This document shows positions 42,440-53,478 of a stretch of DNA of 64,000 nt, piece after piece. The notes below the pieces were generated by a model, which made no database searches, had not been told where the DNA came from, and saw nothing but the letters and a program-made list of their open reading frames with translations. Position numbers and translations under genes: made by a program. Numbering within the stretch: the first letter of the stretch is position 1; every line of letters starts with the position of its first letter. Source of the DNA: Hypericibacter adhaerens (GTDB taxonomy: Bacteria; Pseudomonadota; Alphaproteobacteria; Dongiales; Dongiaceae); the NCBI RefSeq assembly GCF_008728835.1, contig NZ_CP042582.1:62001-126000 (forward strand). Reading direction: 5' to 3'.

Positions 42440-44209
42440 CTAGAGCCAGGCGGCGTCGGTCTCGGCAGCCACCGGATCGCAGCGTTCCACCAGGGCCAGC
42501 AGCGGCGCCACGCGCGGCAGCTCCACCGCGGCGAACCATTTCAGGGCCTGACGGCGGCCCCGCGCGGCGGCGGAGTCCTTCCCGCTCCGCTCGGCCGCAT
42601 GGGCCTGGACCGCCAGCCGCCAGGCGATCACCGCGAGCCCGAACGCGTCCAGAAAGGCGCTGGCATTGGCGAGGCAGTCCGCGGCGCGCCCGGCGCTGAA
42701 CGAGACGAGCAGAACGGTCATGGCGTCGTCGATACGCCTCCAGGCCCGGATCAGCTCGTCGATTTCAGGTTCGGATCGTCCGTCGAGATCGGCGTGGATC
42801 GTCGCGCGGAGGGCCCGATAAGCGTCCCCTCCGTCGCGCGTGAGCTTGCGCCCCAGGAGGTCGAGCGCCTGGATTCCGTTGGTCCCCTCATGGATCGGAT
42901 TCAGACGATTGTCGCGGTAATATTGCTCGACAGGAAAATCGCGCGTGTAGCCGTAGCCGCCGAGACATTGGATCGCGAGGTCGTTGGCCTTGGGCCCGTA
43001 GGCCGACGGGAACGACTTGGCGACCGGCGTCAGGAGATCGAGCAGCACGCCGCTCCGCTGCCGGGTTGCGGGGTCGGGATGACGCTGCTGCCGGTCGACC
43101 AGCGTTGCGCAATAGAGGCAGAGCCCCAGCGAGCCTTCGGCATAGGCCTTCTGGGCGAGCAGCATGTGCTTGACGTCGGGATGCTGGTCGATGGGCACCG
43201 GCGGCTGGTCCGGATTGCGGTCGCCGAGCGGGCGGCCCTGGCGGCGCGTGGCGCAGTAGTCGAGCGCGCAATGGAAGCCGGCCAGGGCGAGCATCGCGGC
43301 GCCCAGCCCCACGCCGATGCGCGCCTCGTTCATCATCTTGAACATGTAGTCGAGGCCGCGATGGGCCTCGCCCATCAGGAAGCCGCGGCACAGCCCGGCC
43401 TCGCCCAGGTTGAGGATCGTCGAGGTCGTTCCTCGGTAGCCCATCTTATGGAGCAGGCTCACCAGGGCCACGTTGTTGAAGGCGCCGAGGCTGCCATCCG
43501 CCTCGACCCAATCGCGCGGGACGATGAACAGCGAGATGCCCTTGACCCCGGCCGGCGCGCCCTCGATGCGGGCGAGCACGAAATGGACGATGGTGTCCGA
43601 CAGCGCGTGCGCACCGCCCGATATCCATTGCTTGGTGCCGGTGAGCGCGTAGCTGCCGTCCTCGAGCGGCCGGGCCCGGGTGCGGATGTCAGCCAGCCCC
43701 GAGCCGGCCTGGGGCTCCGACAGCGCCATGGTGGCGAGAAACCGGCCGGATCCCAGATGCGGCAGGAAGCGCACCTTCTGCGCCTCGGTCCCGAAGGCGG
43801 ACAGCATGTTCGCGGCCGCGATCGTCAGGAAGGGATAGGCCGCCGTGGCGATGTTGGCCGCCTGGAACAGGGCGAAGGCCCCTTGCACGACGGTCCAGGG
43901 AAGGCCGAGCCCGCCTTCGTCGACGGGCCGGTGCGCGTTCATGAAGCCCGCCTCTGCGAAGGCGGCGATCGCCTCCTTGACGCCGTCGACGGTGCGGACC
44001 TTGCCGTTCTCGATCCAGGGCTCGCGGTGGTCGGCCTCGCGGTTGTGAGGCGCGAAATGGGACAGGGCCAGCTGCTCGGCGGTATCGATTACGCTCCGCC
44101 ACGCCGTGCCGTCCTGGCCATCGAAAGCGGGCCAGCGCGAGACTTCGTCGATTCCGAGAACGTCGAACAGATGGAATTCGATCTCGGCCCGCCGCCGGGC
44201 AATCGTCAT
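42440..44209 (-). CDS. Acyl-CoA dehydrogenase with C-terminal extension (DmdC-like)
   Basis: 589 aa, longer than a standard 380-residue acyl-CoA dehydrogenase. It has the N-terminal AcdN-type extension and the C-terminal domain typical of the DmdC/AidB-like branch. TMALSEPQAGSGLADIRTRA, TKQWISGGAHALSDTIVHFV, MMNEARIGVGLGAAMLALAG and CLGGYGYTRDFPVEQYYRDN, with IHEGTNGIQALDLLGRKL, cover the FAD and acyl-CoA sites. 3-Methylmercaptopropionyl-CoA dehydrogenase is one member, so the substrate cannot be fixed. It starts 106 bp after the sugar-type ABC ATPase gene on the same strand and may end that operon. Confidence 0.88.
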   Translation of the reverse strand: MTIARRRAEIEFHLFDVLGIDEVSRWPAFDGQDGTAWRSVIDTAEQLALSHFAPHNREADHREPWIENGKVRTVDGVKEAIAAFAEAGFMNAHRPVDEGGLGLPWTVVQGAFALFQAANIATAAYPFLTIAAANMLSAFGTEAQKVRFLPHLGSGRFLATMALSEPQAGSGLADIRTRARPLEDGSYALTGTKQWISGGAHALSDTIVHFVLARIEGAPAGVKGISLFIVPRDWVEADGSLGAFNNVALVSLLHKMGYRGTTSTILNLGEAGLCRGFLMGEAHRGLDYMFKMMNEARIGVGLGAAMLALAGFHCALDYCATRRQGRPLGDRNPDQPPVPIDQHPDVKHMLLAQKAYAEGSLGLCLYCATLVDRQQRHPDPATRQRSGVLLDLLTPVAKSFPSAYGPKANDLAIQCLGGYGYTRDFPVEQYYRDNRLNPIHEGTNGIQALDLLGRKLTRDGGDAYRALRATIHADLDGRSEPEIDELIRAWRRIDDAMTVLLVSFSAGRAADCLANASAFLDAFGLAVIAWRLAVQAHAAERSGKDSAAARGRRQALKWFAAVELPRVAPLLALVERCDPVAAETDAAWL

Positions 44210-44315: not shown

Positions 44316-45821
44316 TCAGTAAACCGCCGCATACATCACCGCCTCCGAGGTCGCCTCTGCCGGCGACAGCTCCTCGACGATCCGGCCCAGCCGCGAAACC
44401 AGAATACGGTCGGACAAGCGCAGGATCTCCGGCAGGTAGGAGGAGATGACGATCACGGCGAGCCCCTCGTCGGCCAGGGCCCCGATCAGGTGATGGATTT
44501 CGGCGATGGCGCCGACATCCACGCCGCGCGTCGGCTCGTCGAAAATGACCAGCTTGGGCTTCTGGACCAGTCCCTTCGCGATGACCACCTTCTGCTGATT
44601 GCCGCCGGACAGCTCGACGACCCGCGCGTCGGCGTTCAATGTCCTGATGTTGAGCTTCTCCGTCCAGCTGGCGGCAAGCGCGCGCATCTCGCTCATGCTC
44701 AGCGCGAGTCCATGCGACTCGCGGCTCGATATCCGCCCGATATAGATATTCTCCGCGACGGACATCGTCTCGAAGTAGCCGTCGCCCTTGCGATCCTCGG
44801 TGACGTAGACGACTCCGTCATTGACCGCCTGGCGGGGCGTCCGGTAGCGCACCGAATGCCCGTCGAAATGCACCTCGCCGCCATGGAAGAAATCCCGCTT
44901 GGCGACGCCGGCGATGATCCTGGCCGTCTCGGTGCGGCCCGAGCCCACGAGGCCGAAAATGCCCGTGACCTGCCCCGCGAAGATCGAGAAGGAGCAGTTC
45001 CGCACGATGTTCTGCATGGAGAGATTCTGCACGGTCAGCACCCGTTCCCCGGGGCGGCGCACCGCGCGGGGATCGGTCACCTGGCCGTAGAGCTCGTCGG
45101 TGAGGGACCGGCCGACCATGTGACGGATGATCGTCTCGCGCGACAGCGTGCTGGCGTCGGCGGTGACGATATGGGCGCCGTCCCTGAGGATCGTGATCCG
45201 GTCGGAGATCTCGAGCGCCTCTTCCAGCGCGTGGCTGATGAAGATGACCGAGACCTGCTCCTTGCGCAGGCGGTCGATCAGGGCGAAGAGATGATGCTTC
45301 TCCTCGGGCGTGAGCGTCGCGGTCGGCTCGTCGAAGATGATGATCTTCGCCTGGAGCCGAACGGCGCGCGCGATCTCGACCATCTGCCGCTTGGCGGTGC
45401 CGAGCGACTGAAGGATCGCCGACGGATCCACGGGAAAGTTCAGCGACTGGAGAAGCTGCTGCGCCTCGATATAGGTGCCCCGCAGGCGGTTGTAGAACTT
45501 CTCATCGCCCAGATAGAGATTCTGGGCGACGGTCAGCGCGGGGACGAGGCTGGTCTCCTGATAGACCATCGCGATCCCGTAGCGCCGCGCGTCCGTCGGG
45601 CCGGCGATATGGATGTGCTCGCCGTTGATGCGGAGTTCGCCTTTGGTGGGAGTGACCGCGCCCGACAGGATCTTGACCAGGGTCGACTTGCCGGCCCCGT
45701 TCTCGCCCAGAAGCGCATGCACCTCGCCGCGCCGCAGATCGAAGTCGATGTTCTTCAGGGCGGCGACGCCGCGATAATCCTTGGCGATGCCCTTCATCTC
45801 CAGGAGCGGCGGGGCGGTCAT
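44316..45821 (-). CDS. Ribose-type ABC transporter ATPase (two-domain RbsA/MglA family)
   Basis: 501 aa, two nucleotide-binding domains. The N-terminal domain has Walker A GENGAGKST and Walker B IIIFDEPTATLTPEE, but the signature reads SLGTAKRQ (residues 139-146) where family members have LSxGQ/LSxxQ. The C-terminal domain has the family's degenerate Walker A GLVGSGRTE, EDRKGDGYFETMSVAENIYI and an intact signature LSGGNQQKV with VIFDEPTRGVDVGA. It pairs with the two permeases of the same operon. Start overlaps the propeller gene stop by 4 bp (ATGA). Confidence 0.9.
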   Translation of the reverse strand: MTAPPLLEMKGIAKDYRGVAALKNIDFDLRRGEVHALLGENGAGKSTLVKILSGAVTPTKGELRINGEHIHIAGPTDARRYGIAMVYQETSLVPALTVAQNLYLGDEKFYNRLRGTYIEAQQLLQSLNFPVDPSAILQSLGTAKRQMVEIARAVRLQAKIIIFDEPTATLTPEEKHHLFALIDRLRKEQVSVIFISHALEEALEISDRITILRDGAHIVTADASTLSRETIIRHMVGRSLTDELYGQVTDPRAVRRPGERVLTVQNLSMQNIVRNCSFSIFAGQVTGIFGLVGSGRTETARIIAGVAKRDFFHGGEVHFDGHSVRYRTPRQAVNDGVVYVTEDRKGDGYFETMSVAENIYIGRISSRESHGLALSMSEMRALAASWTEKLNIRTLNADARVVELSGGNQQKVVIAKGLVQKPKLVIFDEPTRGVDVGAIAEIHHLIGALADEGLAVIVISSYLPEILRLSDRILVSRLGRIVEELSPAEATSEAVMYAAVY

Positions 45822-46900
45822 GATGCCAATCCCTCATAGGCGCAGGAGGCGACGACGCCGTCGCCCTTGGCTGAAAACAGAAGTTGTCCGCCGACCGCCA
45901 GGCAGCTGGTGACGCCGTGCCGCCTTCCATTCGCCCGGCTGTGAAGGCTGGCGATCGGACGGTAGGCGCGATCGAGCAGCGCCACCAGCCCGTAGGACTG
46001 GCTGGGCGACCAGGGCTTCAGCAGCCCGAGCTGCCTCATGCCGCCCTGCTGCATCGGCTCCTTGGGCGACCGCCCGGCGCGAAGGCAGGGCGCCACCCAA
46101 TGATCGGCGCCGATCTCGCTGATCATGCGCCGGCGATAGCGGTCCTCGCTCAGCACGAATTCGACGATCTGGCTCCGTGGCGCAAACAGGGCGAGCCAGA
46201 TCCTGTCATCGGCACCCCGCGACAGGCGGCTGGGATAGGCGGGAAGGTGTGCCAGTATCCGCTCGCTTCTGCCGGCCGCGCCGGGCGCAATTCGTGTCAG
46301 CGAGCTGCGCCAGCTTTCCGAGACGACGATCGAACCGGGTTCCGCGATGAGGCCGTAAGGGTACGCCAGGTTTCCCGCCAGCTGCTGCGGGTTGCCGCCG
46401 GCGGGTTCGATCCGCCACACGGAGCCGGTGGCATTCTTCTCCATCAGGTCGCGCTTCCACGCGGCCGGTCCGTTCGATGCCGACCCATTGGCGACGAACA
46501 GAGATCCATCCGGCGCGGAGGCGAGCGCGGTGATGCACCGCACGCCGGGACCGATCCCGATCGTCTTTCCGTCATGCCGGCCGCCGACGAAGGCGATCCT
46601 GCCGTCGCTCAAGCCGACCGCGGCACCGCCATCCGGCAATCCCGCCAACGCGCTGATCTCGGCATCGAAGAAGGCGACCGGCGCTCCGCCGGGCTTGCCG
46701 ATGCCGAACAGCGAATGACCCGACGAGACGACGACGCCGTGCGACGTGATGGCCAGGCAGTCGGGCGCCGGCAGTTCCGCGACCGCCGAGGCCGAATCGA
46801 GAAGATCGTTGGGTCGGAAGGCGCCGTCCATCGGCGGCGTCGTGATGGAGGCTTCGCCGCGACCGAGCCACCGGTCCAGGGGCTTCTTGAGCGGATTCAT
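45818..46900 (-). CDS. SMP-30/gluconolactonase-like beta-propeller protein
   Basis: 360 aa, no signal peptide. Repeated blade-like units, each Gly/Asp-rich with a strand pattern, are visible: VVVSSGHSLFGI, ALAGLPDGGAAVGLSDGRIA, ITALASAPDGSLFVANGSAS, GLIAEPGSIVVSESWRSSLT and RADDRIWLA-like. Candidate metal ligands are Asp/Asn at PDCL, FVANG and the SES region. It is more diverged from SMP-30 than the propeller fused to the preceding permease. The gene overlaps both neighbours by 4 bp (ATGA), so it is a coupled member of the transporter operon. A lactone or ester hydrolase in the cytoplasm is inferred. Confidence 0.7.
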   Translation of the reverse strand: MNPLKKPLDRWLGRGEASITTPPMDGAFRPNDLLDSASAVAELPAPDCLAITSHGVVVSSGHSLFGIGKPGGAPVAFFDAEISALAGLPDGGAAVGLSDGRIAFVGGRHDGKTIGIGPGVRCITALASAPDGSLFVANGSASNGPAAWKRDLMEKNATGSVWRIEPAGGNPQQLAGNLAYPYGLIAEPGSIVVSESWRSSLTRIAPGAAGRSERILAHLPAYPSRLSRGADDRIWLALFAPRSQIVEFVLSEDRYRRRMISEIGADHWVAPCLRAGRSPKEPMQQGGMRQLGLLKPWSPSQSYGLVALLDRAYRPIASLHSRANGRRHGVTSCLAVGGQLLFSAKGDGVVASCAYEGLAS

Positions 46901-49017
46901 GGGCGCTTCGCCCAATAGGAGGCCGGGCCGGTCCATTCCGGATCGGCGTCGGGGAGCTTGATCCGCCCCACCCGGTTGTTGGTGACGCCGCCGATATAGA
47001 GATAGCCGCGATGCTCCCGCATCGAGGTGATCGTCGGGTGGTTTTCGCCGGCCGAATCCCAGAGCGATTCGAGAACGCGGCCCGTGGCGTCGAAACGCAC
47101 CAGGCAGCCGACATTGACGTTCGGAAACAGCCATTCGACGCTGGCGACGCGCCGTGCCATGCGCCGCCGGAAGGCCGGCATCGTCATTGCCAGGTCGTAG
47201 GACGGCGTCCGCGTGCCGGCGAGCGCCACCCAATAGGTCCCGCGCGACCCCCGGTTGATGTTGTCGGGATATCCGGGAAGCCCCTCGAGCACGATCTCGG
47301 TCGTGCCCTGCTTGGGCCCCTCCAGCCAGTAGCGGCTGATGCGGCAGCCCCACGTCTCGGCGAACAGGACCGACTTGCTGTCGTGCGCGATGCACATGCC
47401 GTTTGCGAAGAGAAGGCCGCGCTTGATGGTCCGCGTGGTGTCCGTCGCGGGATCGTACCGGATGAGCCGCCCGTTGCCGCGCCCTTCCAGGGCGTCGGCG
47501 ACCCACTCCTCGATCCCGTAGCGGATCGTGGCCTCGCTGAAATAGATCTTTCCGTCGGGCGCGATATCGAGATCGTCGGCGAGCCGCATGCGGGAATCGT
47601 CGATCACCGACAAGCGCGACCGGTTCGTCTCCGCGGTCAGTTTCCGGATGTTGCGCCCCTTGTCCACGCGGTAGAGGCCCATGCCGGCGATGCACACGAC
47701 GAGGCTCTCGTCCTTGTCGATGGCCATGCCGAGCGGCCGGCCGCCCACATGGACATAGACCTCGCGTCGCCGGTAGTCGGGCGCCAGGAAACGGACGATG
47801 TCGCCCTGACGCACGCTGCAATAGATGTTGTCGTCCGCGTCGAGGATGACGTCCTCGGGCCCGTCGACCTCGCCGAGGCCGATGACCTCGACGTCGTGGA
47901 GACGGTCGTTCATCGCGTAAGGCGAAGGCGAGTTCGGGTCGATGTCCGGGTCGGGGGGCAGGGCCAGATAGGCGGGCGACATGTAGACCTTCGACTGGAT
48001 CTTATGCCGCCATTTGCTCCAGCGTACGTTGATGCTGATCGCCAGCAGCAGCACGATGCCGACCGCCATCTGCGACGAGCCGTTCCCGAGCCCGAGCCTG
48101 ACCAGCCCGTTGGTCAGGAGCGAGACGATGATCGCCCCCATCAGCGCCTTGGCGACCGACCCGTGCCCGCCGCCGATGCTGTTGCCCCCGAGGAGCGCCG
48201 CCGTCACAACGGCGAGCTCGAGGCCGAGCCCGGTGTCGGGGCCGGCGCCGGAGAGCCTCGACGCATAGAGCGCCCCCGCGCAACCGGTGAGCAACCCGGA
48301 CACGACATAGGTCATGCACACCGTGAAGCGAACCGGGATGCCCGCGTTGTAGGCCGAGCGGCGCGATCCGCCGACCGCCATGATGCGCCAGCCGACGCGG
48401 AGCCGGCTCATGACGATATGCGCCGACACCGCCACGACGATCAGCACCACGACGCTGAAAGGCAGGCCCAGAACCGATCCCGTGCCGATGAACTCCCACG
48501 AATCGGATTCGACGAAGCTCGCGGCGATGTCCACCTGATACATCTGAAGAAGAAGGGTGACGACCGCGCGCACGAGCGTCAGCATCACGAGCGTGGTCAG
48601 GAACGCCCGCAGCCGGAGATAGCCGATCAGCAGGCCGTTGATCAGGCCGACCAGGGCGCCGACGCCCATCGTTCCGGCGATGACCGCCGGTGTGGGCCAC
48701 TGGGCCAGGTTGAACAAGGCCAGGGCCGTGATGTTCGCGAGGGCGAATGTCGAGCCGACGCTGAGATCGATACCGCCGCCCAGCATGACGATCGTCATGC
48801 CGATGACGATCAGTCCGAATTCGCCGATCTGGCGCGAGGTGTCGGAGAGGTTCCCGTACGAGACGAAATTGGGGATCGTCGCCACGAAATAGGACAGGAT
48901 CGCGACGAGAAGGAGGACGGGGATCGTGTTGTCCATCCACCTCTTGCCGAGCACCTCGCCGACCATGTGGTCGGGGAAATATCGATAGCGCAGCCTGGTG
49001 ATCAAGTCGGCGATCAT
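46897..49017 (-). CDS. Fusion: ribose-type ABC permease with strictosidine-synthase/SMP-30-like beta-propeller
   Basis: 706 aa, one uninterrupted frame. Residues about 30-335 are an RbsC-type permease of about ten helices (LIVIGMTIVMLGGGIDLSVG, LLGGNSIGGGHGSVAKALMG). After a 35-residue Pro/Asp-rich linker, residues about 380-706 are a six-bladed propeller of the strictosidine-synthase-like/SMP-30 superfamily: VDGPEDVILD with the metal Glu, GLLFANGMCI with Asn, LFAETWGCRISRYWLEGPK, and LPGYPDNINRG with Asp. RbsC proteins end in the cytoplasm, so the propeller should face the cytoplasm. Start is the ATG at 49017; a TTG at 49038 is possible. Co-operonic with a second propeller, ATPase, binding protein and second permease. 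Function inferred as import coupled to lactone or ester hydrolysis. Confidence 0.88.
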   Translation of the reverse strand: MIADLITRLRYRYFPDHMVGEVLGKRWMDNTIPVLLLVAILSYFVATIPNFVSYGNLSDTSRQIGEFGLIVIGMTIVMLGGGIDLSVGSTFALANITALALFNLAQWPTPAVIAGTMGVGALVGLINGLLIGYLRLRAFLTTLVMLTLVRAVVTLLLQMYQVDIAASFVESDSWEFIGTGSVLGLPFSVVVLIVVAVSAHIVMSRLRVGWRIMAVGGSRRSAYNAGIPVRFTVCMTYVVSGLLTGCAGALYASRLSGAGPDTGLGLELAVVTAALLGGNSIGGGHGSVAKALMGAIIVSLLTNGLVRLGLGNGSSQMAVGIVLLLAISINVRWSKWRHKIQSKVYMSPAYLALPPDPDIDPNSPSPYAMNDRLHDVEVIGLGEVDGPEDVILDADDNIYCSVRQGDIVRFLAPDYRRREVYVHVGGRPLGMAIDKDESLVVCIAGMGLYRVDKGRNIRKLTAETNRSRLSVIDDSRMRLADDLDIAPDGKIYFSEATIRYGIEEWVADALEGRGNGRLIRYDPATDTTRTIKRGLLFANGMCIAHDSKSVLFAETWGCRISRYWLEGPKQGTTEIVLEGLPGYPDNINRGSRGTYWVALAGTRTPSYDLAMTMPAFRRRMARRVASVEWLFPNVNVGCLVRFDATGRVLESLWDSAGENHPTITSMREHRGYLYIGGVTNNRVGRIKLPDADPEWTGPASYWAKRP

Positions 49018-49036
49018 CTCGATGCGTTCCCGTCGC

Positions 49037-49075
49037 AAAAAGAAGGCGCTGAGCCGATCCCGCAGCTCAGCGCCT
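49037..49075 (-). terminator. Intra-operon terminator-like hairpin after the binding-protein gene
   Basis: AGGCGCTGAGC (49044-49054) pairs perfectly with GCTCAGCGCCT (49065-49075), 10-nt loop. Read on the minus strand, the stem is followed by TCTTTTTG and lies 25 bp after the binding-protein stop, 20 bp before the fused permease start. It should attenuate transcription into the permease, propeller and ATPase genes. Confidence 0.75.
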
Positions 49076-49099
49076 CACGGAAGATGTCTCGCGGAGCCG

Positions 49100-50104
49100 T
49101 CAATTCTTCTTGATGCTTGCGGCGCTCCAGCACATGCCGGGATGGAGGGTCTCCTTCGTGATCCTGAGCGCGGGCGTGTAGATGACGAACTTGTTCTTGC
49201 CGGCCGGTTCCCCGGACTGCAGAACGGTCTGGACCATGACGGCCAGGGCGTGCCCCTGATCCAGGACCGGGTAGGCGATCTCCTCGTCGAACACGCCTTT
49301 CTCCACGTTGTCGCAGGCCATCTGCTCGCCGCCGCCGGAGGTGACCAGCGCGATCTTCTTGCCGGACTCCTTGATCGCCGCCGCCGCGCCCAGATCCATC
49401 ACGTCCCAGAACCCGACGACGCCGCACAGATCCGGGTTCTGCTGAATGACGGTCGCGATGATCGTGCGCGCCTTGGTCGCGTCCCAATCCGCGCCCTGGT
49501 TGGCGACGACCTTGATCTCGGGATGCTTGGCCAGGATGTTCTCGGCGCCCTTCATCATGCCGCTATCGGATCCGGAGGTCGGCTGGCCTTGCAGGATGGC
49601 GATCTTCTGGCTCGTCCCCGCCCCGCACCTGTCGACGATCGCCTGCGTTTCCGCCTCGCCGATGCCGATCCAGTCCGCGCCGACATAGGCGTCCGAATTG
49701 TAGTTCGACCGCATGTTGACCTGGATGACGTGGATGCCGGCCTCTTCGGCGCGCTTGAGCAGCTTCGCGTAGGATTGGATGTCCGGATTGTGGACGATGA
49801 GAACGTCCGGCTTCTCCGAGATCAGGGCGGTGATGGCCTGGGCTCCGGCGTCGGCGCTGAAATGAGGGTCGCGGATCACGAAATTCATGCCGAGATCCTT
49901 GGCCTGGGCCTCCAGGACCGATGCCCAGCCGTCGGTCAGATCGATACCCATCGTGACCGGCACGAAGGCGACCGTCTTGCCTTCGAAGGTCTTGAAGTAA
50001 TCGGCGCGTCTCGGATCGTCGATGCCGGCGCCGATGGATAGGCCCGCAATTCCCAGCGCCGACACCATCGCCGCCGCCGCGATAAGAATGTTTCTCGTTT
50101 TCAT
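49100..50104 (-). CDS. Ribose-type ABC transporter substrate-binding protein
   Basis: 334 aa. Signal peptide MKTRNILIAAAAMVSALGIA to about residue 26. Peripla_BP_4-type fold: FVPVTMGIDLTDGWASVLEA, ISEKPDVLIVHNPDIQSYAK, KRAEEAGIHVIQVNMRSNYN, KIAILQGQPTSGSDSGMMKG and VVGFWDVMDLGAAAAIKESG. Ligand unknown; ribose-family binders recognise pentoses, polyols or autoinducer-like sugars. Between the two permease genes of the operon. Confidence 0.9.
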   Translation of the reverse strand: MKTRNILIAAAAMVSALGIAGLSIGAGIDDPRRADYFKTFEGKTVAFVPVTMGIDLTDGWASVLEAQAKDLGMNFVIRDPHFSADAGAQAITALISEKPDVLIVHNPDIQSYAKLLKRAEEAGIHVIQVNMRSNYNSDAYVGADWIGIGEAETQAIVDRCGAGTSQKIAILQGQPTSGSDSGMMKGAENILAKHPEIKVVANQGADWDATKARTIIATVIQQNPDLCGVVGFWDVMDLGAAAAIKESGKKIALVTSGGGEQMACDNVEKGVFDEEIAYPVLDQGHALAVMVQTVLQSGEPAGKNKFVIYTPALRITKETLHPGMCWSAASIKKN

Positions 50105-50135: not shown

Positions 50136-51158
50136 CTATATGTCGCCCTGTTGCGCGGTCTGTTCATCGCGGGGATTGACGATGCTGTCGATCACGATCG
50201 CGATGAGCAGGACGAGACTTCGGATCACGTCCTGCAACGTGTATTGGATATCCATGATGGTCATCCCGTTGAGCAGGATGCCGATCAGCAGGGTGCCGAC
50301 GACGACGTTGCGGACGCCGCCGCGCCCTCCCGAAAGGCCGATGCCGCCGAGAACGACGACCAGGATGACGTCGTAGATCATCGAGGAACTTGCGATATTG
50401 GTGTTCATGCTGGCGACGGCCGTCGCCGTGACCAGGCCGGCCAGGTAGGCGATCGTCGCCGAAATCGCGTATTGCAGGATGATCATGGGACGCACCGGCG
50501 CGCCCGACATGCGCGCAGCGGCAAAATTGTCGCCCATCGCGTAGATGAACCGCCCGGGTTTGGTGAAGCGCAGGAACGCGAACCCGAGCAGGGAGACGAG
50601 GGCGAAGAGGAGAATCGGAACCGGCACGCCGAACGCGAAACCGCTGCCGATCCAGGCAATGCCGGACGCCGACTCGGGCATGTAGACCACGTAGAGCGGC
50701 ACGAGGGCATAACGGGCAAAGCCATAGACGAACGAAGCCATGCCCAGGGTGGCGAAGAGGGCCGGGACTTCGACATAGGCGATGAGGACGCCGTTGACCA
50801 CGCCGGCCGACAGCGCGAACAGATAGCCGATGAGCATGGCGAGCGGTACGGAGATGCCGCCATTGGCGAGATGGAGCGTCCACCCGACCGACATCGCGTA
50901 GATCGCGACGATCGCCAGGTCGATCCCGCGGCCGATGATGAGAATCGCCATCCCGACGCCGAGGATGCCCAAGGTGGAGACGCCGCGTACGAGCGTCAGG
51001 AGGTTGCCGGCGCTGGTGAATCCGTTGAGGAACAGCGAAAAGGCGCAGAAGAGAAGGATCGCGATCAAGAACACGATCTTCTCTTGGTTCAACGATATGC
51101 GTCCTGTCCGTCTGAGCATGGATTCCCCGTGTCGCGATTCTTCGTCGCGAGCACTCAT
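50136..51158 (-). CDS. Ribose-type ABC transporter permease
   Basis: 340 aa, stand-alone RbsC-type permease. ILGVGMAILIIGRGIDLAIV is the conserved segment, VILVVVLGGIGLSGGRGGVR the second. About ten helices. N-terminal cytoplasmic segment MSARDEESRHGESMLRRTG is charged. It is probably the non-fused partner of the permease-propeller protein in a heterodimeric channel. First transporter gene of the operon, 279 bp downstream of the AraC gene. Confidence 0.9.
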   Translation of the reverse strand: MSARDEESRHGESMLRRTGRISLNQEKIVFLIAILLFCAFSLFLNGFTSAGNLLTLVRGVSTLGILGVGMAILIIGRGIDLAIVAIYAMSVGWTLHLANGGISVPLAMLIGYLFALSAGVVNGVLIAYVEVPALFATLGMASFVYGFARYALVPLYVVYMPESASGIAWIGSGFAFGVPVPILLFALVSLLGFAFLRFTKPGRFIYAMGDNFAAARMSGAPVRPMIILQYAISATIAYLAGLVTATAVASMNTNIASSSMIYDVILVVVLGGIGLSGGRGGVRNVVVGTLLIGILLNGMTIMDIQYTLQDVIRSLVLLIAIVIDSIVNPRDEQTAQQGDI

Positions 51159-51437: not shown

Positions 51438-52436
51438 CTATGCCGTGCCATCCGCGAAGGGCGGCGTCTTCTTCGAAGGGCCCGGCAGGAACGTCGCTCT
51501 CCGTATGTCCGACGGCCGCACGCCGAATTCCGCGCGGAACAGATTGCTGAAATGGGAGGAGCTGCTGAAACCCATCGAATAGGCGATCTCGGTGATCGAT
51601 CGTGCCGCGTGCCGCGGCGAGGCCAGCAGTTCGTAGCAGCGCTGCAATCGCCGCAGCCGCAGCCATTCGGTGACCGACATGTTCATGGGTCGGAAAAGCT
51701 GATGGAGGTAGCGCAGCGAGATGCCGTTCTGAGCCGCGATCTTGCTCAGGGTCAGGTCGGGGTCGCTCAAATGGGCTTCGATATAGCTCTTCACCGACCA
51801 CAAGCGGGCGCGCTTCAGGCTCAATTCGTCCGCCGATTGCCGCTCGGGCTCCGCGCTGACGGCAAGGGCGAGGATATCCATCAACTGCTCGCCCAGCCGT
51901 TCCTGCGTCTGCAGATCGAGATCGGCCGTTTCGGCAGCCAGGGCGGCGCAAAATTCGACGGCGATCCGGCCCAGGCCGCGGCCTGAATTGAGATGCGTGA
52001 TGACCGGCGCCTGCGCCGAATCGAAGCGGTCGGCGAAGACCTGGCGCGGCAGCTCGATCCAGAACGAGTGATTTTTCTCTTCGCATCCCAGCTCGTACGG
52101 CTCGCTCGCGCAGTAGAGCACGCCGCAGCTCGGATGCAGGGTCAGCACGGAGCCGGCCTGCCGGACGAACCCGGTGCCGCGCTGCACCAGGCCCACGTAG
52201 TAGCAATCCTTGCCGATGCGGGCGATATGCTGCTTCTGACGCTGCACCGTCTGGGGCGAGCAGAGCGCATCCGTCAGGATGACCTCGCCCAACCGCGTCT
52301 CGCGGACAAAGCCGTCATAGTCCGTTTCCGGCTCGATCGCGCAATCCACCCGCAGATAGATGTCGCAGATGGCGTCCCGCCAGGCTTCCCGGCGCTTGGC
52401 CGCGGGCAGAGCTTTGCTGTCGAAAACAGTTTGCAT
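51438..52436 (-). CDS. AraC family regulator (AraC_binding_2 type)
   Basis: 332 aa from MQTVFDSKALPAAKRREAWR, with GGGGAGG upstream of ATG 52436. The N-terminal AraC_binding_2-like domain (about 20-190) has YYVGLVQRGTGFVRQAGSVL and CASEPYELGCEEKNHSFWIE. The HTH region has LTLSKIAAQNGISLRYLHQL and ITEIAYSMGFSSSSHFSNLF, with FRAEFGVRPSDIRR after. It lies upstream of the transporter operon on the same strand, and its probable target is that operon. Cys-rich ligand domain is unusual. Confidence 0.88.
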   Translation of the reverse strand: MQTVFDSKALPAAKRREAWRDAICDIYLRVDCAIEPETDYDGFVRETRLGEVILTDALCSPQTVQRQKQHIARIGKDCYYVGLVQRGTGFVRQAGSVLTLHPSCGVLYCASEPYELGCEEKNHSFWIELPRQVFADRFDSAQAPVITHLNSGRGLGRIAVEFCAALAAETADLDLQTQERLGEQLMDILALAVSAEPERQSADELSLKRARLWSVKSYIEAHLSDPDLTLSKIAAQNGISLRYLHQLFRPMNMSVTEWLRLRRLQRCYELLASPRHAARSITEIAYSMGFSSSSHFSNLFRAEFGVRPSDIRRATFLPGPSKKTPPFADGTA

Positions 52437-52894
52437 GGCCACCTCCCCAAAGCGCCATTCAGGCAACCCTCCGACGCTTCAGCGCCTTGTCATTTCGGCC
52501 CTGCAGAAGGACTGCGGGAAGAGGGACCGGGGGCCCTTCGCCCGCGGCGCCGCTACCCCAGATTGAGCCGATTGGGACTTGAGTCCGTTCTTTATTTTGA
52601 GCCTACCGGACAGAGTAAAGCAACGGGGCGGGGCGCTAAGCCCTTCGGGAGCGCAGCGCTTCGCTGCATTGCAGCATGAGGGCGTTCGCGGTTGCGAGAA
52701 CCGCGAGCGTCCGATGGGCCGTCCGCGTTGTGCGGTCGGCCGGTGTCATTTGATAGGCTCTGTTCGCCGGGCGCGATGATCGCTATTGCCCGCCAGGAAG
52801 AACGCGGCATACCCCGCCCGCGCAGCGGGCCGTTGCACTGACAATGCCGTTCGCCGTAACCGTTCCGACCGCTTGATTTCAGAGGAGACGCAGC
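52437..52894. other. 458-bp region without a gene
   Basis: No ORF here has recognisable protein content. The stretch begins as the promoter side of the AraC gene, with an AT-rich part around 52580-52620 (GTTCTTTATTTTGAGCCTAC). A hairpin CGCGGTT-GCGAG-AACCGCG lies near 52690-52712, and a second near 52720-52742. The last 30 bp hold the promoter and Shine-Dalgarno (AGAGGAGACGC) of the GFA gene. It may be partly scar sequence, given the SDR remnant beyond the GFA gene. Confidence 0.5.
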
Positions 52895-53287
52895 ATGGAG
52901 CGATTCACCGGTGGCTGCTTGTGCGGCAACGTCCGAATTGTGGCGTCGGGGCGCCCCTACCGGGTCGGCCTTTGTCACTGCCTCGACTGCCGCAAGCATC
53001 ACGGGGCCCTCTTTCACGCCTCCGCGATATTTCCTCAGGACGCGGTGACGATCGAAGGCGAAACACGCGACTATGCCGGACGGTTCTTCTGTCCCCGCTG
53101 CGGCTCCTCCGTTTTCTCGCGCAGCGCGGACGAGATCGAAGTGAACCTCGGATCCCTGGATGCCCCCGACCAGCTGAAGCCGACCTACGAGCTCTGGACC
53201 GTCCGTCGCGAGTCCTGGCTGCCGCCGTTTCCGCTCGAGAGACGATACGAGCGCGATCGCGACACCACGGATCGCTTGGAGGCGTAA
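52895..53287 (+). CDS. GFA (CENP-V/Gfa-like) family protein
   Basis: 130 aa zinc protein of the GFA family. The Cys motifs are all present: CLCGNVRI, CHCLDCRKHHG and CPRCGSSVFS, giving two zinc sites. Named after glutathione-dependent formaldehyde-activating enzyme, though most members have unproven activity. It stands alone, with noncoding sequence on the left and an SDR remnant on the right. Confidence 0.9.
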   Translation: MERFTGGCLCGNVRIVASGRPYRVGLCHCLDCRKHHGALFHASAIFPQDAVTIEGETRDYAGRFFCPRCGSSVFSRSADEIEVNLGSLDAPDQLKPTYELWTVRRESWLPPFPLERRYERDRDTTDRLEA

Positions 53288-53364
53288 GGATCGACGACGG
53301 CACCCGGTTTCAGGTCAGGGATGCCGCCGCCTCCGCCACCAGGGACCGCAGCCAGCGATGGGCC

Positions 53365-53478
53365 GGGGGCGGGACGCCGGTCGAGGTCGCCTATGGCGTT
53401 CTTTACCTCGCTTCCGACGAGTCGAGCTGCGTCACCGGCGCTGAGCTGGTGATCGACGGCGGTTACCTCGCGCAATAG
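53365..53478 (+). pseudogene. 3-prime remnant of an SDR gene
   Basis: The frame reads GGTPVEVAYGVLYLASDESS followed by CVTGAELVIDGGYLAQ and stop, which is the standard C-terminus of classical SDRs (GTPEEVAYGVLYLASDESSFVTG... in relatives). The rest of the SDR, including cofactor and catalytic motifs, is absent upstream. The GFA gene precedes it directly, so an SDR was probably truncated by recombination or deletion. Confidence 0.7.

Follow-up and report, generated by a model that had tools for sequence, protein, structure and literature searches.

Why should the permease of a sugar-type ABC (ATP-binding cassette) importer carry an enzyme-like beta-propeller? The question is raised by a gene in a 64,000-nucleotide stretch of Hypericibacter adhaerens DNA (NCBI RefSeq assembly GCF_008728835.1, contig NZ_CP042582.1, positions 62,001 to 126,000; hereafter the window, to which the coordinates below refer). 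The gene joins an RbsC-type permease to a strictosidine-synthase-like (SSL) propeller. We find that it is the third gene of a recurring five-gene cassette: a permease without a propeller (permease A), a binding protein, the fusion, a second and free propeller (PROP2), and a double-domain ATPase. The answer that we favor, to which we give somewhat less than an even chance, is that the fused propeller would hydrolyze lactones or esters, in a metal-dependent way, where the importer opens into the cytoplasm, with PROP2 as a pseudoenzyme partner. The fusion gene and its halves are:

46897..49017, minus strand: fusion gene, RbsC-type permease plus SSL propeller, 706 amino acids (open reading frame and Pfam)
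47983..49017, minus strand: permease half, residues 1-345, with ten assigned hydrophobic segments and a basic loop at 204-232
46900..47922, minus strand: fused propeller half, residues 366-706 (Pfam and profile comparison with solved structures)

The frame runs from an ATG at 49017 to a TGA stop at 46899-46897 with no internal stop. The permease half matches BPD_transp_2 (residues 59-326, E 6.6e-34, 117.7 bits against a gathering cut-off of 26.8) and contains GGIDLSVGS, which we take to be the family motif. The propeller half matches SSL_N (366-410, E 1.7e-14, 53.8 bits against 18.9), Str_synth (481-567, E 1.3e-21, 76.9 bits against 25), and SGL (416-602, E 8.9e-13, above the gathering cut-off). 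An earlier reading made from the sequence alone (the sequence-only reading) had described the fusion as one open frame with these two halves, and the 706 codons on the minus strand and the Pfam matches above their cut-offs confirm both the frame and the residue ranges. That reading did not state the strand, and it missed PROP2, the five-gene cassette, the further copies in the host genome, and the fact that the propeller is nearer to SSLs than to SMP-30. A long plus-strand frame that overlaps the gene is taken as a by-product of the high G+C content. An AlphaFold2 model of the fusion, built from five sequences, reached a predicted local distance difference test score (pLDDT) of 35.5 and was left out of the fold search and the ligand geometry.

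The other four members of the cassette in the window are:

50136..51158, minus strand: permease A, RbsC-type, without propeller (BPD_transp_2, 94.6 bits against 26.8)
49100..50104, minus strand: periplasmic substrate-binding protein (Peripla_BP_4, E 2.6e-44)
45818..46900, minus strand: PROP2, free second propeller, 360 amino acids, with an ATGA overlap with the fusion stop and its pocket residues lost
44316..45821, minus strand: RbsA/AraG-like ABC ATPase with two nucleotide-binding domains, overlapping the end of PROP2 (full-length AraG/RbsA profile matches; ABC_tran matches in two stretches)

Chance or artefact is excluded because the fusion recurs across copies in the host, genomes of the phylum, plasmid records, and the modules that we compared. 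The host genome holds seven full-length copies (the other six are 51-62% identical), and matches at E ≤1e-100 occur in 11 of 398 genomes sampled from the phylum, host included; in the host's family, nine of 17 genomes match. At E 1e-60 the plasmid collection yields 16 matching records, and in 15 the match spans 80% or more of the query; these records include Shinella, Rhizobium, Salipiger, Paraburkholderia, and Pantoea. The cassette order is the same in the six of these 16 records that were inspected (the Salipiger pPABY1 record starts before the cassette end). A pattern scan of genome contigs gave 64 matches with 4 relatives, and the 19 matches of the same kind of scan in viral contigs included no relative. 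Two of the host copies (L034 and L036; C1 298581-300683 and 309311-311410), encoded on opposite strands, are about 8.6 kb apart and have Peptidase_S58-family and epimerase-like genes between them.

For a closer comparison we used 42 distinct modules, which come from 27 genomes or plasmid records. The sequence-only reading had proposed a search for the same fusion and its operon partners in other genomes, and these modules supply both: the fusion, PROP2, and the ATPase (one cut) are present in all 42, and the binding protein and permease A in 41 (both are missing from module L106, at a contig end). A frameshift, which had been offered as a way to undo the fusion, does not account for it, as the same single frame is found in every module. 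When the propeller was compared with 385 genomes of the class, with no more than five candidates scored in each, every one of the 20 matches with 49% identity or higher lay in a fused frame; a contig end truncates one of them. The next 16 matches (34-40% identity, E 5e-59 to 3e-46) lay in frames of 358-507 amino acids, followed by 11 weaker ones. At 18 of the lower-scoring loci, 15 with standalone SSLs and 3 with weaker matches, the flanking DNA (up to about 1.5 kb) contained no relative of the permeases, the binding protein, or the ATPase.

The cassette is inherited as a unit, because the pairwise distances of the 40 complete modules are in agreement for all six parts (Mantel r of 0.71-0.92; shuffled values reach at most 0.18-0.33). 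A tree built by a quick method without bootstrap from 31 fused propellers, 31 PROP2 sequences, and 15 standalone SSLs places the fused propellers and PROP2 each on one side of a branch (Shimodaira-Hasegawa-like approximate likelihood ratio test support of 99 and 100; standalone, 64), so a single origin of the fusion suffices.

What kind of propeller is fused to the permease? Its best solved relative by sequence is rice TGW6 (8kg3, profile E 1.4e-31), followed by strictosidine synthases; the matches to DFPase (E 4e-4 and weaker) and to a putative gluconolactonase (0.008) are remote. The TGW6 report describes that protein as an indole-3-acetic acid (IAA)-glucose hydrolase (PMC10958001). The residues that would line the pocket in the fusion are encoded at:

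47854..47856, minus strand: codon of pocket residue E388 (E in 42 of 42 modules)
47575..47577, minus strand: codon of pocket residue D481 (D in 34, N in 8 of 42)
47401..47403, minus strand: codon of pocket residue N539 (N in 42 of 42)
47260..47265, minus strand: codons of D585 and N586 (both in 42 of 42)

All of these residues but D481 fall in the motifs GPED (386-389), FANG (537-540), and YPDN (583-586), whose family metal residues the sequence-only reading had called intact; the alignment agrees, with E388, N539, D585, and N586 invariant. By alignment only, the ligand set of the SMP-30/gluconolactonase/DFPase type (E, N/D, N, D/N) is present in all 42 fused propellers. The 15 standalone SSLs also largely keep it (E388 in 15, D/N481 in 15, N539 in 14, D585 in 15, N586 in 13). 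The same report states that the known Ca sites in proteins of this kind include two or more acidic residues, that TGW6 has only one, and that its E59, N167, N226, and N272 occupy the positions of its relatives' Ca site (PMC10958001). A HMMER alignment (numbering offset hand-counted) places these four on E388, D481, N539, and N586, and 34 of the 42 fused propellers have an acidic residue at both 388 and 481. D585, by its spacing, could equally be what we take to be the aspartate of SMP-30/DFPase.

PROP2 has no Pfam match at E 0.01. We nevertheless conclude that the cassette encodes two propellers, because the PROP2 profile aligns with that of the fused propeller (hhalign, 31 sequences against 31; 310 columns, probability 99.95%, E 7.1e-38, 20% identity) and because a PROP2 model of moderate quality (pLDDT 62.9) finds strictosidine synthases as its best solved-structure matches (6s5u, TMq 0.61, Foldseek). 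By these comparisons PROP2 and the fused propeller are distantly related, and PROP2 is without the pocket residues. At the aligned positions it has D in 35 and E in 4 of the 42 modules (388), T in 35 (481), a variable residue with N in only 6 (539), S, G, or A in all 42 (585), and R in 39 (586), so that in this alignment the metal ligands of an active SSL/SMP-30 enzyme are not kept. A salt bridge between the conserved Asp and Arg could take the metal's place. As PROP2 of the same operons thus serves as a control within the cassette and carries other residues, the comparison suggests that selection keeps the pocket of the fused propeller. The exact ATGA start overlap of PROP2 is found in 33 of 42 modules. 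By a simple hydropathy test, only 1 of 42 PROP2 sequences has a strongly hydrophobic stretch at its N-terminus, against 38 of 41 binding proteins and 1 of 41 ATPases.

The rates at which the parts change differ as well. Across the complete modules, mean pairwise identity is 0.636 for the ATPase, 0.616 for the fused propeller, 0.510 for permease A, 0.510 for the fused permease, 0.429 for the binding protein, and 0.405 for PROP2. Among the host's seven copies, the fused propeller (0.628) likewise exceeds the permease to which it is attached (0.540). The fused propeller behaves as core machinery and PROP2 as a fast-changing partner.

On which side of the membrane does the fused propeller lie? Ten segments were placed in the permease half by hydropathy, with the helix boundaries of the low-confidence fusion model as a guide (in the hydropathy track alone some segments are weak or split, around 240-247, 272, and 292-305). 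In 31 sequences, the loops assigned to the inside carry 4.9, 0, 2.0, 6.2, 1.0, and 5.5 K+R per sequence (sum 19.6), against 1.1, 0.1, 0.6, 1.0, and 0.8 (sum 3.6) for those assigned to the outside. This charge contrast, and not the model, supports a cytoplasmic propeller, which is where the sequence-only reading had put it; the C-terminus does not look periplasmic, and we reject a periplasmic fused propeller on this ground. A caution for the topology call is that several standalone SSLs have an N-terminal hydrophobic segment and may be periplasmic.

How does this system compare with known ones? It resembles the RbsABC/AraFGH (CUT2) sugar importers in its BPD_transp_2 permeases, its Peripla_BP_4 binding protein, and its double-domain RbsA/AraG-like ATPase. 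Unlike them, it has two distinct permease genes, one of which adds a propeller of some 340 residues, plus a free propeller gene. No NCBIfam equivalog cut-off was reached among the matches listed (the best for the fusion was the RbsC model, with 157.6 bits against 398), so named transporters provide no substrate name. The propeller shares with TGW6 the SSL_N and Str_synth domains and the aligned pocket positions; it differs in being fused behind a permease, cytoplasmic by charge bias, and in having a second acidic ligand candidate. It resembles strictosidine synthase (2fp8 and others) over residues 488-598, and N586 is kept, but that enzyme has G and G at the positions of N539 and D585. Its catalytic residue, presumably Glu309 (offset hand-counted), aligns with T664, which is T in 42 of 42 modules. 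Strictosidine synthesis is rejected on both counts. The SGL match and the weak DFPase and gluconolactonase matches link the fused propeller to the SMP-30/gluconolactonase/DFPase group, but it is nearer to SSLs. Another natural fusion of an SGL propeller is the Deinococcus Cu/Zn superoxide dismutase with a beta-propeller lactonase; it has a different fusion partner, and its description gives Ca-dependent lactonase activity on 2-coumaranone and an architecture reported only in the genus Deinococcus (PMC12362111). In searches of an open-licence library aimed at the present system, the papers listed included no description of the permease-propeller fusion, or of the role of the pair of propellers (subscription papers were outside the search). 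The RbsABC importer and the SSL propeller are known kinds, and on this showing an importer architecture with one intact and one degenerate propeller is a new form of them.

What might be imported? Around the cassette, the window contains:

51438..52466, minus strand: AraC-family regulator, FeaR-like, upstream (start codon uncertain; relatives near seven other modules)
49036..49076, minus strand: GC-rich hairpin followed by a T-rich stretch, terminator-like, between binding protein and fusion
42440..44209, minus strand: acyl-CoA dehydrogenase-like gene, downstream, a candidate pathway gene outside the core

The hairpin is perhaps an attenuator. Similar hairpins occur in five of the five modules of the nearest group (the window and L009-L012) and, by a simple search, in 12 of 41 modules, but the fold energy alone is not unusual (z of -1.42; 18 of 200 shuffles equally good). 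Farther upstream, at 52895-53478 on the plus strand, a GFA-family gene (PF04828) is closely followed by what appears by eye to be no more than the C-terminus of a short-chain dehydrogenase (about 53379-53478), possibly a gene remnant.

We scanned 59 hand-picked neighbors of 20 modules and then searched all modules with a few of them. The scan found a thiolase, a short-chain dehydrogenase/reductase (SDR), and a beta-lactamase-fold hydrolase; a CoA-transferase III and an enoyl-CoA hydratase; a set of AMP-ligase, acyl-CoA dehydrogenase, and APH-family kinase; an FMN-dependent dehydrogenase; an isocitrate/isopropylmalate-type dehydrogenase; and an FGGY kinase. The AMP-ligase set presumably resembles levulinate or 4-hydroxy-acid catabolism, and its acyl-CoA dehydrogenase and APH-family kinase are found near 3 modules. 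A carboxymuconolactone-decarboxylase-family gene lies behind the ATPase in seven modules (L093, L070, L106, L097, L096, L090, and L032). Five of these group together in the propeller tree and the other two are not in the tree; the host's own copy in that group is without such a gene. In Roseiarcus fermentans (L012:5185-6789), a tannase/feruloyl-esterase-family gene with a signal-like N-terminus (by eye) lies between permease A and the binding protein, and L011 has a gene 79% identical to it beside the module, so that two of the four nearest relatives have such an esterase gene inside or beside the module. We regard the L012 gene as a lead to the importer's substrate. Several neighbors, drawn from varied loci, would be in keeping with hydroxy or phenolic acids, for which lactone and ester forms exist. 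Because the scanned neighbors are too varied, we do not name a substrate.

Genes for CoA thioesters occur near 19 of 42 modules (one rests on a 24% match) against one of eight scored controls. The controls were 13 loci, all from the host genome, of which five were dropped for want of a usable permease match; the first module place in L104, a duplicate of one in L103, was removed from the count, and some stretches were shorter than the full search range. SDR genes were equally common (3 of 8 controls and 15 of 43 module rows).

Putting these observations together, we see in the cassette a five-gene RbsABC-type (CUT2) importer. One of its two permease subunits carries an SSL propeller, which by charge bias lies on the cytoplasmic side. 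The sequence-only reading had offered two roles for the domain, hydrolysis (of rings or esters) coupled to import and substrate sensing; we propose the following. The binding protein would deliver a lactone or ester of hydroxy or phenolic acids, and the channel formed by permease A and the fused permease would pass it inward. At the exit it would be hydrolyzed by the fused propeller, whose E388/D481/N539/D585-N586 pocket would hold a Ca-type metal, and so be trapped as the free acid for enzymes encoded nearby. PROP2 would dock as a degenerate partner, perhaps matching the second permease subunit, and might serve assembly or control. A further step, which we consider possible but less likely than not, is that exit hydrolysis by the permease-borne propeller, with its inactive partner in the same complex, would make chemical trapping pull uptake along with ATP, as a kind of group translocation. 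We know of no ABC importer that works in this way.

Several observations weigh against a hydrolase. First, the propeller is conserved like the ATPase while binding proteins and pathway neighbors vary, which fits shared machinery equally well. Second, the neighbor signal is weak: the CoA-type queries were drawn from module neighborhoods and 23 of 42 modules are without any such match, and we do not find the excess of CoA genes convincing. Third, the crystal of TGW6 showed no Ca, yet TGW6 hydrolyzes its substrate (PMC10958001), so ligand residues do not prove a metal enzyme.

The first of these points favors the main rival, that the fused propeller is a metal-binding regulatory or gating domain that senses a metal or the imported product in the cytoplasm and thereby slows transport (trans-inhibition), with PROP2 as its partner in an asymmetric pair. 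Regulatory C-terminal domains are found on ABC importers of other families (MetN, ModC, OpuA), and here the conservation of the domain exceeds that of the attached permease despite diverging binding proteins; PROP2 is in every module, and pathway neighbors (selected neighbors only) differ. The residues that are kept, however, make up a catalytic-type pocket common to standalone SSLs, and the papers listed in the aimed searches of the open-licence library included no such regulatory domain, which is weak evidence. We consider a regulator possible but less probable than a hydrolase. Ranked third, and improbable, is that the propellers are scaffolds, as propellers commonly are, which recruit cytoplasmic enzymes to the channel exit or stabilize the complex, with pocket residues that are only structural. 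The presence of PROP2 in all modules, though it lacks the pocket residues, agrees with a scaffold, but PROP2 also shows that unneeded residues can drift, and those of the fused pocket (all but 481) have not. Finally, it is hardly conceivable that two adjacent genes were read as one: annotated plasmid records do call the product an SMP-30/gluconolactonase/LRE family protein or an ABC transporter permease, never a fusion, but the cross-genome comparison, with one frame in 42 of 42 modules and in 20 of 20 close matches, refutes this.

Those annotations, as a lactonase-like enzyme or a plain permease, make it easy to miss an importer subfamily that one genome carries in seven copies. Should the propeller prove to be a hydrolase, ABC import and the first catabolic step would form one machine. 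If it is regulatory, it would be a new control domain for sugar-type importers. PROP2, whose pocket is lost, offers a natural control by which the question of function can be tested.

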